From NCBI GenBank assembly GCA_036389795.1, contig DASVWD010000072.1, forward strand, positions 1-64,000: DNA of 64,000 nt, written 5' to 3'. Of this stretch, positions 3,928 to 61,555 are shown in pieces. Numbering within the stretch: position 1 is the stretch's first letter; each line of letters begins with the position of its first letter. The notes beneath the pieces were generated by a model, which was given only the letters and a program-made list of their open reading frames with translations, was not told the DNA's origin and made no database searches. Source of the DNA: Longimicrobium sp. Lineage in GTDB: Bacteria; Gemmatimonadota; Gemmatimonadetes; Longimicrobiales; Longimicrobiaceae. Position numbers and translations under genes: made by a program.

Positions 3928-4005
3928 AGTGCCCAGTGCCTAGTGCCCAGTGCCCAGGAACCGCGATGTGTTACTGGGCACTTGGGACTGGGCACCGGGC
4001 ACTGC
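3928..4005. repeat. family A hairpin element, empty form (sufB-sufD gap)
   Basis: The left arm (3928-3958) is a tandem run of the heptamer GTGCCCA and the right arm (3973-4005) is the same heptamer inverted (ACTGGGC). A 14-base loop separates them. Read in the direction of transcription, the element begins four bases after the sufB stop codon. Its arms match those around the four-helix-bundle gene at 17573-18004, including the same TTCCTGGGCACTGGGC edge, so it looks like an emptied copy. Confidence 0.8.
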
Positions 4006-5456: not shown

Positions 5457-5533
5457 TAGTGCTTAGTCCTTAGTGGGTTAGTCCTTGGTGCTTGACTGAA
5501 GGTACTAAGACACTAAGGACTAAGCACTCAGGA

Positions 5534-5536
<3 letters not shown>
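5457..5536. repeat. family A hairpin element, empty form (sufC-sufB gap)
   Basis: The left arm (5457-5495) is built from TAGTCCTT-like heptamers and the right arm (5504-5536) from their inverse, AAGGACTA. The outermost CTA of the right arm is, on the minus strand, the TAG stop codon of sufC (5534-5536). The repeat therefore supplies the stop codon. The loop is only 8 bases and contains no gene. Confidence 0.8.
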
Positions 5537-7449: not shown

Positions 7450-7481
7450 AAGTGCGAAGTGCGAAGTGCGAAGTGCGAAGC
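7450..7481 (+). repeat. family A heptamer array (GTGCGAA)n
   Basis: Four perfect copies of the 7-base unit GTGCGAA follow the TGA of the patatin gene with no gap. No inverted arm is seen. A short GC hairpin (GCCGCCCGGCGG...) comes next and may act as the gene's terminator. Confidence 0.75.
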
Positions 7482-10282: not shown

Positions 10283-10381
10283 CTCACACGGAGGAAACGG
10301 AGTTAACGGAGAACTACGGGGGTTCTCTGCTGACTCCGTTGACTCCGTTGACTCCGTTGACTCCGTTGACTCCGTGTGAGG
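10283..10381. repeat. family B-type hairpin with TTGACTCCG nonamers
   Basis: The right arm has five near-perfect copies of the 9-base unit TTGACTCCG (10331-10375) ending GTGTGAGGC. The left arm (10283-10312) is the degenerate inverse, beginning CTCACACGGAGG. The ends CTCACAC/GTGTGAG match the CTCAC...GTGAG ends of family B, but the internal unit differs. Confidence 0.65.
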
Positions 10382-16443: not shown

Positions 16444-16466
16444 TTCCCGTTCCGCTGCGGGAGTCG

Positions 16467-16573
16467 TTTAGTCCTTAGTGCTTTAGTCCTTAAGTCCTTA
16501 GTCCTGAGCGCCAGGCGCCGAGTGCGAGTGAGCCCTAACGCACTAAGGACTCAGGACTTAGGACTTAGGACTA
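16467..16573. repeat. family A hairpin element, empty form (pdhB-pdhC gap)
   Basis: The left arm (16467-16506) has TTAGTCC heptamers and the right arm (16540-16573) the inverse GGACTTA. The loop of about 33 bases has no gene but includes GAGTGCGAGTGAG, a trace of the GTGCGAA unit. The last CTA of the right arm is the TAG stop codon of pdhB, as in sufC. Confidence 0.8.
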
Positions 16574-17551
16574 TCTGTACAGCACCCGGTTCACCTTCTC
16601 CACCACCAGCTCCGCGCTGGGCTTGGCCGCCCGCTCCAGCCCCTTGGCGTAGGGCATGGGGACGTCGGCCTGGGTGACGCGGAGCACGGGGGCGTCCAGG
16701 TGGTCGAAGGCCTCCTCCTGGATCAGCGCGGCCACCGTGGCGGTCACCCCGGCGAAGGGCCACCCCTCCTCCAGCAGCACCACGCGGTTGGTCTTCGCCA
16801 CCGTGGCCAGGATCGCGTCCACGTCCAGCGGGCGTAAGCTGCGCAGGTCCAGCACCTCGGCGTCCACGCCGTCCTTCTCCAGCTTCGCCGCGGCCTGCAG
16901 CGCCACGTGGATCATCTTCCCGTGGGTGATGATGGAGACGTCGCTTCCCTGGCGCTTCACCTCGGCCACGCCCAGCGGGATCACGAAGTCGTCGCCGTCG
17001 GGGACCTCGCCCTTGAGGTTGTAGAGCATCTCGCCCTCGAAGACGCACACCGGGTCGTCGTCGCGGATGGCGGCCTTGAGCAGCCCCTTGGCGTCGGCCG
17101 GGGTGCCGGGGACCACCACCTTGAGCCCGGGGAAGTGCGCGTTGCTGGCCTCCAGCGCCTGCGAGTGCTGCGCGGCCAGCTGGAGCGCCGCGCCCGTGGG
17201 GCCGCGGAAGGTGATCGGGATCTTGAACTGCCCGCCGCTCATGGAGAGCATCTTGGCGGCCGAGTTGAAGATCTGGTCGTACGCCAGGATGGCGAAGTTC
17301 CAGGTCATGAACTCGATCACCGGCCTGAGGCCCGTCATCGCCGCGCCCACCCCGAGCCCCGCGAACCCCAGCTCGGTGATCGGCGTGTCGACCACCCGCA
17401 TCTCCCCGAAGCGGTCCAGCAGCCCCTTCGACACCTTGTAGGCGCCGTTGTAGACGCCGACCTCCTCGCCCATCAGGAAGACGTCGGGGTCGCGCTCCAT
17501 CTCCTCCGCCAGCGCCGCGTTCAGCGCCTCGCGATACGTGATTACGGCCAT
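16571..17551 (-). CDS. pdhB: pyruvate dehydrogenase E1 beta subunit
   Basis: The 326-aa protein has the transketolase pyrimidine-binding domain (ITYREALNAALAEEMERD, MGEEVG at about 27-32) and the C-terminal transketolase domain. Family marks include EAFFDHL-like IQEEAFDHLDAPVLRVTQADVPMPYAKGLE. It pairs with pdhA to form the E1 decarboxylase. The start is ATG 17551, with no clear ribosome site. The gap to pdhA is filled by the four-helix-bundle element. Confidence 0.95.
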   Translation of the reverse strand: MAVITYREALNAALAEEMERDPDVFLMGEEVGVYNGAYKVSKGLLDRFGEMRVVDTPITELGFAGLGVGAAMTGLRPVIEFMTWNFAILAYDQIFNSAAKMLSMSGGQFKIPITFRGPTGAALQLAAQHSQALEASNAHFPGLKVVVPGTPADAKGLLKAAIRDDDPVCVFEGEMLYNLKGEVPDGDDFVIPLGVAEVKRQGSDVSIITHGKMIHVALQAAAKLEKDGVDAEVLDLRSLRPLDVDAILATVAKTNRVVLLEEGWPFAGVTATVAALIQEEAFDHLDAPVLRVTQADVPMPYAKGLERAAKPSAELVVEKVNRVLYR

Positions 17552-17572: not shown

Positions 17573-18004
17573 AAGTGCCCAGTGCCCAGTGCCCAGTGCC
17601 CAGGAACTTCAACCGCCCAGCGATTTCCGCAGCGCGATGAGCATCCGGGTGATCTCGGTGCAGGACTCCAGCAAGGCAATGCAATCTCTCTCGTTGACGT
17701 ATCCCAGCTCCCGTGCCAGGTGCACCTGGCTCCGGACTTCGCCTGCCGAGCCTCGCGCGATGCTCACGAACCGCGCGAACTCCGCCCGGCTGTTCCGCTC
17801 GAACCCTTCGGCGATGTTCGACATCACGGAGACAGCGGCTCGCTGGATCTGATCGCGCAGGCCGAAGTCTCTCGCGAACGGTCCCGACCCTGTCACCCGG
17901 TAGATCTCCACGCATAACCGCTTGGCCTTTTGCCAGGCCAGAAGCTCCTCAAACCGAGCAACCGCCACCAAGCCTCCTGGGCACTGGGCACTGGGCACTG
18001 CCGC
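17573..18004 (-). mobile_element. family A hairpin element carrying a four-helix-bundle gene
   Basis: The element has arms of GTGCCCA heptamers in opposite orientation at 17573-17604 and 17975-18004, and the gene 17609-17968 fills the loop. It sits between pdhA and pdhB and begins directly next to the pdhA stop codon (18005-18007). Similar arms without a gene are found at 3928-4005, and related ones at 5457-5536 and 16467-16573. The filled and empty forms in the same window suggest a mobile or formerly mobile unit. No transposase is present. Confidence 0.65.
17609..17968 (-). CDS. four-helix-bundle protein (23S rRNA intervening-sequence protein family)
   Basis: The 119-aa protein matches the family closely: RFEELLAWQKAKRL near the start, GLRDQIQRAAVSVMSNIAEG in the middle and EFARFVSIARGSAGEVRSQ after it. 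Known members are encoded in intervening sequences of 23S rRNA genes, and the related Avd protein serves diversity-generating retroelements by binding nucleic acid and reverse transcriptase. The start is probably GTG 17968; the AGGAGG before it lies at the inner edge of the heptamer repeat, so the repeat supplies the ribosome site. A GTG at 17998 would start within the repeat. The neighbouring genes are unrelated pdh genes. Confidence 0.9.
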   Translation of the reverse strand: MAVARFEELLAWQKAKRLCVEIYRVTGSGPFARDFGLRDQIQRAAVSVMSNIAEGFERNSRAEFARFVSIARGSAGEVRSQVHLARELGYVNERDCIALLESCTEITRMLIALRKSLGG

Positions 18005-19237
18005 TCAGCGCCTCCCGTCGAAGTACAGGCGGCCGTTGACGTTCTCGTTGGCGTAGATCTCCGTGTAGAGCTCGGCGACGTCGGGCTCGGGGCTCTTCTC
18101 GGCGAACTCGGCGGCCTCCTCGGAGATCTTCTTCACCTCCTCGTCCATCTTCTCCAGCTCGTCCTGCTGCAGGATACCGGCGCGGGCGAGCAGGTCGGCG
18201 TAGATGCGGATCGGGTCCTTCGCCTTCTCGGCCTCCACGTCCTCCTTGGTGCGGTAGACGCCCGAGACGGGGTCCGACATCGAGTGGCCCACGAAGCGGT
18301 AGGTGCGCGCCTCGATCAGCGTGGGACCCTCGCCGCGGCGGGCGCGGTCGTGCGCCTCCTTCGCCACGCGGTACATGTCGAGCACGTCCATCCCGTCGGC
18401 CACCGCGCTCGGCATGGCGTAGGCGCTGGCCTTCTGCCAGATGTCGTAGAGGCTGGCCGCGCGCTCCCAGGCGGTGCCCATCCCGAAGCGGTTGTTCTCC
18501 ACGATCAGCACCAGCGGCAGCTTCCAGAGCGCCGCCATGTTCAGCGACTCGTGGAAGGCGCCCTGGTTCACCGCGGCCTCGCCGCAGTACACCTGCATCA
18601 CGCGGTCTTCCTGGCGGTACTTGATCTTCCACGCCACGCCCAGCGCCAGCGGGATCTGGCCGCCCACGATGCCGTGCCCGCCCAGGTAGTTGTGCTCGGC
18701 GCTGAACATGTGCATCGAGCCGCCCTTCCCCTTGCTGCACCCGTCGGCGCGGCCGTACAGCTCGGCCATCACCGCGCCGGGGCTGATGCCCACCTGCAGC
18801 GCGTGCGCGTGCTCGCGGTAGGCGGTCATCACGTAGTCGTCCTTGCGCAGCGCGTGGATGGCGCCGGTGGCCACCGCCTCCTGCCCGATGTACAGGTGGC
18901 AGAACCCGCCGATCTTCCCCAGCGCGTAGCTCTCGGCCGCCTTCTCCTCGAAACGCCGCGCCAGCAGCATGTCCCACATCATCTGCCGGAGCTGCTCCCT
19001 GGGCAGCCCCTGCAGGCGCTCCTCGTCGGAGAGCTCCGGCTTCTCCTCCTGCTGCCAGGCGCGGTCGGGCGCGGGGGACTCGCCCTTGCTCTCGTCCTCG
19101 CGCGGCCCGTGCGCTTCGGCGCGCGCCTCGGCCTGGGCCTGGTCTTCGGGCGCCTCGGTCCCGGCGGTCTGCGCCCCCGCCTGAGCCTGGTCCTCGGGCG
19201 CTTCGGTCTCGACGGTATGGGTCCGCTCTTCAGCCAT
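18005..19237 (-). CDS. pdhA: pyruvate dehydrogenase E1 alpha subunit
   Basis: The 410-aa protein binds thiamine diphosphate and decarboxylates pyruvate with PdhB. Family marks are LYIGQEAVATGAI (about 105), YREHAHAL, GGSMHMF and ENNRFGMGT. The magnesium/TPP motif, normally GDG...N, reads CGEAAVNQGAFHES, so the usual Asp-Gly is Glu-Ala. The first 75 residues are an acidic extension with a tandem TEAPEDQAQA repeat and are absent from most homologues. The start overlaps the end of the Uma2 gene by eight bases. Confidence 0.93.
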   Translation of the reverse strand: MAEERTHTVETEAPEDQAQAGAQTAGTEAPEDQAQAEARAEAHGPREDESKGESPAPDRAWQQEEKPELSDEERLQGLPREQLRQMMWDMLLARRFEEKAAESYALGKIGGFCHLYIGQEAVATGAIHALRKDDYVMTAYREHAHALQVGISPGAVMAELYGRADGCSKGKGGSMHMFSAEHNYLGGHGIVGGQIPLALGVAWKIKYRQEDRVMQVYCGEAAVNQGAFHESLNMAALWKLPLVLIVENNRFGMGTAWERAASLYDIWQKASAYAMPSAVADGMDVLDMYRVAKEAHDRARRGEGPTLIEARTYRFVGHSMSDPVSGVYRTKEDVEAEKAKDPIRIYADLLARAGILQQDELEKMDEEVKKISEEAAEFAEKSPEPDVAELYTEIYANENVNGRLYFDGRR

Positions 19238-34463: not shown

Positions 34464-34556
34464 CTCACGCAGAGGAAGCAGAGGAAGCAGAGGTAGCAGA
34501 GTAGCAGAGGAAAACAGCGCGATGAGCTCTCTGCTTCCTCTGCTGACTCTGCGTGA
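34464..34556. repeat. family B hairpin with CAGAGGAAG nonamers
   Basis: The left arm begins CTCACGCAGAGG and runs through four nonamer-like units (CAGAGGAAG, CAGAGGTAG); the right arm ends CTCTGCTGACTCTGCGTGA. It lies between the acyl-CoA dehydrogenase start and the metK end. No gene is enclosed. Confidence 0.7.
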
Positions 34557-40547: not shown

Positions 40548-40737
40548 TGCGTGAGGGATGCGCGCCCGGAGGGCCGGGACGCCGCCGCGACACGGGGTAT
40601 CGTCGCGGCGGTGGCCCGGCGCAGTTGGGCAGCGTCGTTTGCTGCCCTACTGCGCGCGCAGCCCGGCCCGGAGCGCAGCGGAGGGACACGCCCGAACCGC
40701 AGTGCGAAGTGCGAAGTCCCGAGTGCGAAGTGCGTGG
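40548..40737 (+). repeat. composite repeat: 150-bp repeat R, copy 4, plus family A heptamers
   Basis: Here the R unit is on the opposite strand: it begins GCGTGAGGGATGCGCGCC at 40549 and ends GGACACGCCCGAAC near 40698, followed at once by CGCAGTGCGAAGTGCGAAG heptamers (to 40737). It fills most of the space between the MFS and FkbK-like genes; the remaining 40393-40547 shows no gene. Confidence 0.8.
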
Positions 40738-50353: not shown

Positions 50354-50395
50354 AAGTGCGAAAGTGCGTGAGTGCGTGAGTGCGAAAGTACGGGG
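50354..50395. repeat. family A array (AGTGCGTG octamers) between clpS and clpA
   Basis: Units AAGTGCGA, AAGTGCGTG, AGTGCGTG and AGTGCGAA run in tandem from eight bases before the clpA start to ten bases after the clpS stop. The array fills the whole gap. Confidence 0.7.
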
Positions 50396-54764: not shown

Positions 54765-54798
54765 AAAAGTGCGAGGTGCGAGGTGCGAAGTGCGAAAA
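54765..54798 (+). repeat. family A heptamer array (GTGCGAG/GTGCGAA)
   Basis: Four units (GTGCGAG, GTGCGAG, GTGCGAA, GTGCGAA) begin four bases after the TAG stop of the zinc-ribbon gene. A GC hairpin (GGAGGCCGGCGGCGGCTTCC-like) follows and may terminate the transcript. Confidence 0.7.
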
Positions 54799-56051: not shown

Positions 56052-56139
56052 CAAATGCAACTTCAACTGCAGTGACGACACGGACGTCGCGGCGGGCCTG
56101 ATGCTTGCGCGCGCCCGTGGGTGCCAGAGCGAAGTCCAC

Positions 56140-56177
56140 TTCGCACTTCGCACCTCGCACTTCGCACTTCGCACTTT
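56140..56177 (+). repeat. family A heptamer array before the DUF72 gene
   Basis: Five units of TTCGCAC (with one CTCGCAC) end eight bases before the ATG of the DUF72 gene; the ribosome site GAGG follows at the edge of the array. Confidence 0.7.
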
Positions 56178-58577: not shown

Positions 58578-58652
58578 CCGTACCTCGTACCCCGTACCTC
58601 GTACGAGCCGGCTGTACCCGTACTTTCGTACTCACGCACTCACGCACTCACG
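58578..58652 (+). repeat. family A array: GTACCTC heptamers and ACTCACGC octamers
   Basis: Units CGTACCT, CGTACCC, CGTACCT, CGTACGA are followed by 20 bases and then three ACTCACGC octamers ending three bases before the ATG at 58655. No ribosome site lies between array and start, so the array forms the whole start region. Confidence 0.7.
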
Positions 58653-61526: not shown

Positions 61527-61555
61527 CACTCTCGCACTCCCGCACTCACGCACTT
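61527..61555 (+). repeat. family A array (CGCACTC units) before the HAD gene
   Basis: Four CACTCNCG-type units end ten bases before the GTG start at 61565. Confidence 0.65.

Follow-up and report, generated by a model that had tools for sequence, protein, structure and literature searches.

Introduction

Described systems close to the element reported here include the intervening sequences (IVSs) of 23S rRNA in Leptospira, Coxiella and Xanthomonas, which are 0.4-0.7 kb long, end in terminal inverted repeats and encode S23p, a protein of the same four-helix-bundle (FHB) family. The Coxiella IVS carries tandem heptamers of the unit GACAGAT upstream of S23p, has a 28-bp terminal stem and is processed by RNase III, and the paper that describes it cites older ideas of IVS mobility (PMC4990558). 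The fold is also that of Avd, the protein of diversity-generating retroelements, which belongs to a pentamer-forming family (4DWL, 8UB7). In the RAYT/REPIN system a conserved gene is flanked by its own palindromic repeats and gene-less hairpins are dispersed in the genome; gene and repeat co-vary, and inheritance is mostly vertical (PMC3116915).

The FHB/S23 family is a widespread annotation to which no function is attached, and heptamer arrays have had no partner; a link between the two gives both a testable role. The STRRs of cyanobacteria are dispersed heptamer arrays. Arrays of GGGAATC in Xanthomonas and of GGGGATT in Nostoc (PMC4692102), and of TAACTGA in Beggiatoaceae and cyanobacteria (PMC4679880), have been described without an origin or a partner protein. 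Like the hairpins reported here, the arrays of Xanthomonas, Nostoc and Beggiatoa are tandem 7-mers, intergenic and dispersed, often as convergent pairs in Xanthomonas; unlike them, the arrays reported here are tied to FHB genes and have matching units in trans. A full-text search of the literature, covering few subscription journals, found no report that joins the FHB/S23 protein family to heptamer arrays.

The FHB elements differ from IVSs in occupying protein-coding operons and intergenic gaps, in having matching tandem arrays as both arms, in their gene-less satellites and in showing no signature of RNA pairing. What appears new beyond the IVS is a system that is matched in trans, has no enzyme and changes its word. 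The contrast with Avd systems is that the genome studied here has no reverse transcriptase and that identity between the FHB and Avd proteins is only 12-13%. As in RAYT/REPIN, cognate hairpins both flank the FHB gene and seed the genome, but the protein is a four-helix bundle instead of a HUH/Y1 transposase, each end is a tandem array with a unit of 7-9 nt where RAYT/REPIN has just one REP palindrome, and lineages differ freely in the unit. The genomes studied here contain both systems, and their repeats are not alike.

Results

An FHB gene between inverted arrays in the pdh operon

The window analysed here is a 64,000-nucleotide stretch of the Longimicrobium sp. contig DASVWD010000072.1. Its FHB gene (17609-17968, minus strand; 119 aa, GTG start) lies in a host operon between pdhA (E1 alpha; 18005-19237, minus strand; located by tblastn) and pdhB (pyruvate dehydrogenase E1 beta; 16571-17551, minus strand; orthologues in 20 family genomes), and thus outside 23S rRNA, whose helices are the insertion site of IVSs. 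Tandem-repeat and inverted-repeat detection revealed an arm of 4.3 copies of AGTGCCC downstream of the gene (17574-17603, plus strand) and a second of 3.4 copies upstream of it (17977-18000, minus strand). Together they form a perfect 26-nt inverted repeat (17580-17605 / 17975-18000), which surrounds this S23p-family gene as terminal inverted repeats do in an IVS. The inverted-repeat score of 26 compares with a maximum of 16 among 184 mismatched flank pairs and of 13 among 167 pairs taken 450 nt farther out, and the 14-mer GTGCCCAGTGCCCA is found nine times in the window, allowing one mismatch, where 0.07 occurrences are expected. An earlier, sequence-only reading had described a 119-aa gene between inverted GTGCCCA tandem arrays, and the perfect repeat and the profile match given below bear this out. 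It had also placed the ribosome site in one arm, which is correct in part: the likely Shine-Dalgarno sequence AGGAGG (17973-17978, minus strand; read from the sequence) shares about 4 nt with the inner end of the upstream arm.

The only domain found in the element is PF05635, 23S_rRNA_IVP (E 8.5e-39; 132.5 bits against a cut-off of 33.8), and no transposase lies between the arms. The protein also matches TIGR02436 (E 2.8e-37) and, by sequence, the structure 2GSC (E 2e-36). A predicted model (pLDDT 97) matches 2GSC (XCC0516) with a TM-score of 0.91 and also matches BT_0352 (2RLD), whereas Avd (4DWL) and the diversity-generating retroelement RNP (8UB7) are more distant, with TM-scores of 0.76-0.78. 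The profile and model matches place the protein in the FHB family and predict a four-helix-bundle fold for it. XCC0516, the solved relative, is a pentameric ring. Comparison with four orthologues from the same pdhA-pdhB gap gave dN/dS values of 0.09-0.15, and the overall range of 0.06-0.29 documents purifying selection. Relatives of the FHB protein were absent from a search of phage genomes (INPHARED). In one genome of the genus (G010) an FHB gene, L030, is degenerate with an internal TGA, and its arms remain recognisable.

Inverted arms accompany the FHB family across bacteria

Inverted tandem arrays enclose each of the three FHB genes of this genome, and the unit is a different one every time (AGTGCCC, TTAGTCC and the octamer AGTGCGAG/AAAGTGCG). 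The same arm pattern is seen at 30 loci from the taxonomic family, where the units include GGTTATC, GAATGGG, AATAGGG, AATTACG and GCTCGCG. For a wider sample we took 191 FHB loci, 111 from the phylum and 80 named loci from other phyla, of which 184 had enough flanking sequence, and called arms at an upstream/downstream inverted-repeat score of at least 14, the thresholds being set by hand. At this score an inverted repeat flanks the gene at 145 of the 184 loci, in about 15 phyla, compared with 1 of 184 for mismatched loci and 0 of 167 for the same loci 450 nt farther out. The arms of the pdh locus are thus no local peculiarity, and the sequence-only reading had underestimated their scale: such arms accompany FHB genes throughout the bacteria. 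The arm period is predominantly 7 (96 upstream and 98 downstream arms), with 8 (19 and 19) and 9 (3 and 4) less common. The unit varies from locus to locus and the two arms of one locus match; the median element is 515 bp long, with a median arm of 30 bp. The arms also have a polarity, the upstream arm on the gene strand being rich in G (G exceeds C in 119 arms and falls below it in 18) and containing AGT in 46% of cases and ACT in 8%. Variant units do not follow a significantly mirrored order in the two arms (p=0.09), so direct copying from arm to arm is undemonstrated. A search of 20 FHB loci with weak arms gave no Rfam match nearby, and none of them lies in 23S rRNA.

FHB copies on cyanobacterial plasmids had 7- or 8-mer arms in all six cases examined, one example being WP_011316862 on plasmid C of Trichormus variabilis ATCC 29413. 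An element with inverted 7/8-mer arms on T. variabilis plasmid C (L333) sits within a conjugation gene cluster, and an armed element on a plasmid of Picosynechococcus PCC 7003 (L335) interrupts a type III-B CRISPR module, with cas10 on one side and a cmr3-family gene on the other.

Gene and arms move together

Six members of the genus have an FHB element in the pdhA-pdhB gap. The gap is empty and only 6-12 nt long in three others (G010, G015 and G017) and in five genomes of other genera, and in G006 it contains a gene-less hairpin. The short gaps of these eight relatives bear out the earlier statement that the element interrupts an operon in which adjacent genes usually abut. Two near-identical elements, L063 and L096, lie on different contigs of a single genome amid unrelated flanks, and their homology sets in and breaks off precisely at the outer boundaries of the arms. 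Homology likewise runs from arm to arm between L115 from Pseudomonadota and L117 from Methylomirabilota, which occupy unrelated sites. Since near-identical elements at unrelated sites begin and end at the outer arm ends, the gene with its arms is a mobile unit, and sequence comparison thus documents movement bounded by the arms. On a tree of 73 named FHB loci the phylum label changes 39 times, against 51.5 when labels are shuffled and a minimum of 13, and transfer is therefore common. Within the genus, FHB elements persist for long at orthologous sites.

Target-site duplications are not in general excess, a score of at least 7 being reached at 10 of 136 loci against 11.4 expected from mismatched loci. 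The sole clear case is the pdhA-pdhB element of G012 (L005), where a 13-bp direct repeat, GAGGAATCGCTGA, stands on both sides and duplicates the pdhA end and the pdhB ribosome site; this is not the rule at other loci. An IS element or MITE was rejected as an explanation on three counts, the missing transposase, the lack of excess target-site duplication and hairpin loops that are mostly unrelated.

The sequence-only reading had inferred a mobile element without a transposase, a view it would have dropped if all relatives had the gene in this gap and the arms recurred nowhere else. The gaps of several relatives lack the gene and the arm sequence recurs at other loci, and mobility thus withstands this check. 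Occupied and empty orthologous gaps, arm-bounded copies and a unit common to related proteins at non-orthologous sites support the view that gene and arms act as one mobile unit without a transposase.

Gene-less hairpins match the FHB elements of their own genome

The window contains five gene-less hairpins, compared with none under a Markov null. One of them (3928-4004) has the unit AGTGCCC of the FHB element and the inner end CCCAGGAAC, another (5457-5536) has the unit TAGTCCT/TAGTGCT, and a third (16462-16572) occupies the pdhB-pdhC gap with the unit TTAGTCC; these were found by repeat detection, the third also by gap comparison. The TTAGTCC unit of the pdhB-pdhC hairpin differs from that of the FHB element next to it and corresponds to that of another, L002, on contig C141. 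A gene-less hairpin is present in this gap in every readable member of the genus, and its unit differs by species. In each genome with an FHB gene, this unit resembles that of a resident FHB element, often on another contig (21.8 against 12.5 permuted, p<1/20000), and without the neighbouring FHB element the match is 17.9 against 10.2 permuted (p=0.001). Across family genomes, 36 gene-less hairpins likewise resemble the FHB arms present in the genome where they occur (mean score 13.4 against 7.5 permuted, p<1/5000), which documents a match in trans between arms and hairpins.

Whole-genome counts point the same way. G002, which alone has an FHB gene flanked by AATTACG, contains 308 copies of the AATTACG dimer AATTACGAATTACGAA, and 20 relatives contain none. 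For AGTGCCC dimers the counts are 349 in G012 and 149 in the window's own genome, G000, which both have AGTGCCC-type FHB elements, against 0-44 in the rest of the genus and none in the other nine genera. The 149 in G000 are exact 16-mers, with 0 for the reversed control, and form tandem intergenic 7-mers in many copies, as described for dispersed arrays; in the genome census of AGTGCGTG the reversed pattern reads the same array and so provides no control. Pairs of AGTGCCC matches within 150 nt in G000 always face each other, plus then minus, among the matches listed. Of the 13 elements with the AGTGCCC unit in G000, 11 have the inner end CCCAG[GT]AAC in common, and the FHB element is one of them; apart from such recurring inner ends the loops of gene-less hairpins are mostly unrelated. 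FHB-bearing genomes of other families have few gene-less hairpins, with four in 200 kb against none in 200 kb from FHB-free genomes, counts too small for a comparison.

Hairpins can outlive or precede their cognate gene, since G015 (98% complete, 910 contigs) has a hairpin and no FHB match, and G017 and G009 have 22 and 44 AGTGCCC dimers with no AGTGCCC-type FHB gene detected. In G012 (contig C26, L391) AGTGCCC arrays lie among tRNA genes, two of which they enclose. Nested hairpins are seen in G002 (L366-L383), where AATTACG arms enclose a second heptamer (AATTCAA/GAATTTT) or CAGAGG-type arrays.

Unit matches in trans, strong purifying selection and persistence at orthologous sites are also what one would see if the FHB protein were a DNA-binding regulator or nucleoid protein, with the arrays as operators or structural sites, the hairpins as its regulon, the flanking arrays as autoregulatory sites and no mobility. 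We regard this as unlikely, as it leaves unexplained why arms stand on both sides of the gene, why arm-bounded copies occur at unrelated sites and orthologous gaps are empty, and why the same unit of gene plus arms is found at different sites in different phyla.

Protein and repeat unit covary

At non-orthologous loci the unit is common to 36% of pairs whose proteins are 60-70% identical and to 0.7% of pairs at 30-40% identity, with 0 for the reverse-orientation control. Protein and unit distances are correlated (Mantel r 0.24, a value reached in none of 2000 permutations, p<1/2000), and this coupling persists when cross-phylum pairs alone are taken. The sequences share descent and come from draft genomes, and the p-values are optimistic because of that relatedness. 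At orthologous sites a change of unit tracks protein divergence. Six orthologous elements at the DHS-LOG site have differing units (TTAGTCC, AGTGCGTG, AAGTGCT and AAGTCCT among them), and the arms match within each locus.

Slippage and cruciform-templated repair readily affect tandem arrays and inverted pairs. Such host processes alone could in principle have produced the arrays, with FHB genes as chance passengers, and hairpins in genomes such as G015, where no FHB gene was detected, would fit. We find this account barely credible, given that the association is specific to FHB genes (145/184 against 0/167), that RAYT genes in these genomes are accompanied by REP palindromes rather than 7-mer arrays, and that protein identity predicts the unit.

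DNA or RNA

Selection for RNA pairing between the arms would be expected to leave more G-U than A-C mismatches. No excess was observed between the arms (G-U 176, A-C 191, p=0.46), nor in any subset of arms examined. In an RNA element of the IVS type, the two arms would form a stem within the host transcript, cleavage of this stem by RNase III would release the FHB mRNA, and the arrays would act as RNA. The shared protein family and the stem, RNase III processing and GACAGAT heptamers of the Coxiella IVS (PMC4990558) speak for it, as do low-GC loci and six cyanobacterial plasmid loci that lie sense within operons. The mismatch counts argue against it, as does the DHS-LOG site, where the FHB gene is antisense to its neighbours, and most gene-less hairpins enclose nothing that could be released; we consider it improbable. 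Orientation was counted in low-GC loci only, where the gene is sense to its neighbours at 13 loci (++) and 2 (--). This bias leaves some room for an RNA-linked step, although it is more simply explained by the gene being expressed from its host operon.

A retroelement in which FHB works like Avd, with a reverse transcriptase supplied in trans, would be in keeping with the structural likeness to 4DWL and 8UB7 (TM 0.76-0.78) and with the RVT_1 proteins encoded in several relatives. No RVT_1 reverse transcriptase was found in the window's genome (98% complete, with three FHB elements) or in the FHB-bearing G002, G010 and G018, which makes this reading very unlikely, and reverse transcriptase was rejected as the FHB partner. 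No template or variable repeat was noticed among the repeats listed near the FHB gene. The suggestion in the sequence-only reading of an RNA-level or reverse-transcription route is thus unsupported, there being neither a G-U bias nor an RVT_1 gene in this genome.

RAYT was likewise rejected as the mobiliser of FHB elements. RAYT (Y1_Tnp) genes of the genus (L242-L261) have long classical REPIN inverted repeats at 19 of 20 loci and no 7-mer arrays; L257 additionally has arms of the 8-mer ACACAGAG around its RAYT gene. RAYT is absent from four FHB-bearing genomes (G002, G010, G018 and G019). The Y1_Tnp genes of the window's genome lie elsewhere, with REP flanks, and none is between FHB arms.

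A proposed two-part element with a non-enzymatic protein

We are confident that the FHB gene with its inverted arrays and the cognate gene-less hairpins belong to one element system. The gene and its two arrays constitute an element of about 0.5 kb, with the arrays as its ends. The basic four-helix-bundle protein probably recognises its repeat unit directly, and recognition would most likely take place on a hairpin or cruciform extruded in DNA by the inverted arrays during replication. Copying of the element and its cognate hairpins to further intergenic sites, like the upkeep of their uniformity, would be the work of the host's replication and repair, through template switching or gene conversion, and not of a catalytic domain within the element. 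Template switching on DNA hairpins as the means of copying is a tentative proposal. Hairpin copying favoured by the FHB protein could spread the hairpins, adjust array length and let the word drift in step with the protein. A mostly vertically inherited, constrained gene would then serve dispersed hairpins in trans, as in RAYT/REPIN. We infer direct unit binding, a DNA rather than an RNA substrate and the copying mechanism from the comparisons above, and give this RAYT/REPIN-like two-part model with an unrelated protein, taken as a whole, a probability of roughly 0.6. Counting against it are the hairpins that lack a detected cognate FHB gene, the scarcity of hairpins in FHB-bearing genomes of other families, the mostly unrelated loops, which set the hairpins apart from ordinary MITE copies, the lack of significant mirroring between the arms, and the sense-strand bias, which an RNA-linked process could also produce.

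In the genomes examined, the gene-less hairpins use the word of their own genome's FHB element, which points to selfish or domesticated DNA elements of a family not described before. We see an even chance that they form a pan-bacterial class of mobile or domesticated element, in which a non-enzymatic FHB protein recognises a lineage-specific word of 7-9 nt, spreads or maintains inverted tandem arrays of it through the genome and converts existing hairpins to this word. If so, this would explain where the heptamer arrays of cyanobacteria, Xanthomonas and others, long without an explanation, come from, and what the IVS protein and Avd originally did. The link also offers a plausible ancestor for Avd and for 23S rRNA intervening sequences. 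It raises the question of how an element without an enzyme moves, and changes its word on both arms and genome-wide in step.

Further arrays and a second class of hairpins

Tandem 7/8-mer arrays without a detected inverted partner occur in the window at 7450-7480, 40701-40734, 50354-50389, 54769-54795, 56137-56176, 58579-58652 and 61527-61554, with the units AAGTGCG, AGTGCGA, CACTTCG, CGTACCT and CACTCACG. A second class of gene-less hairpins is built of 8-10-mers (for example ACGGAGTCA, GCAGAGGAA and ACACAGAG) that do not match FHB arms, and is found in the window at 10288-10375 and 34469-34552 and elsewhere at L288 and L282-L329. Genes for GxxExxY proteins (TIGR04256) are flanked by inverted 8-10-mer arrays at 10 of 16 loci of the family and 12 of 26 of the phylum at a score of at least 14, compared with 1 of 26 in the null. 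The GxxExxY genes and their 8-10-mer arrays look like a parallel system with a different protein.
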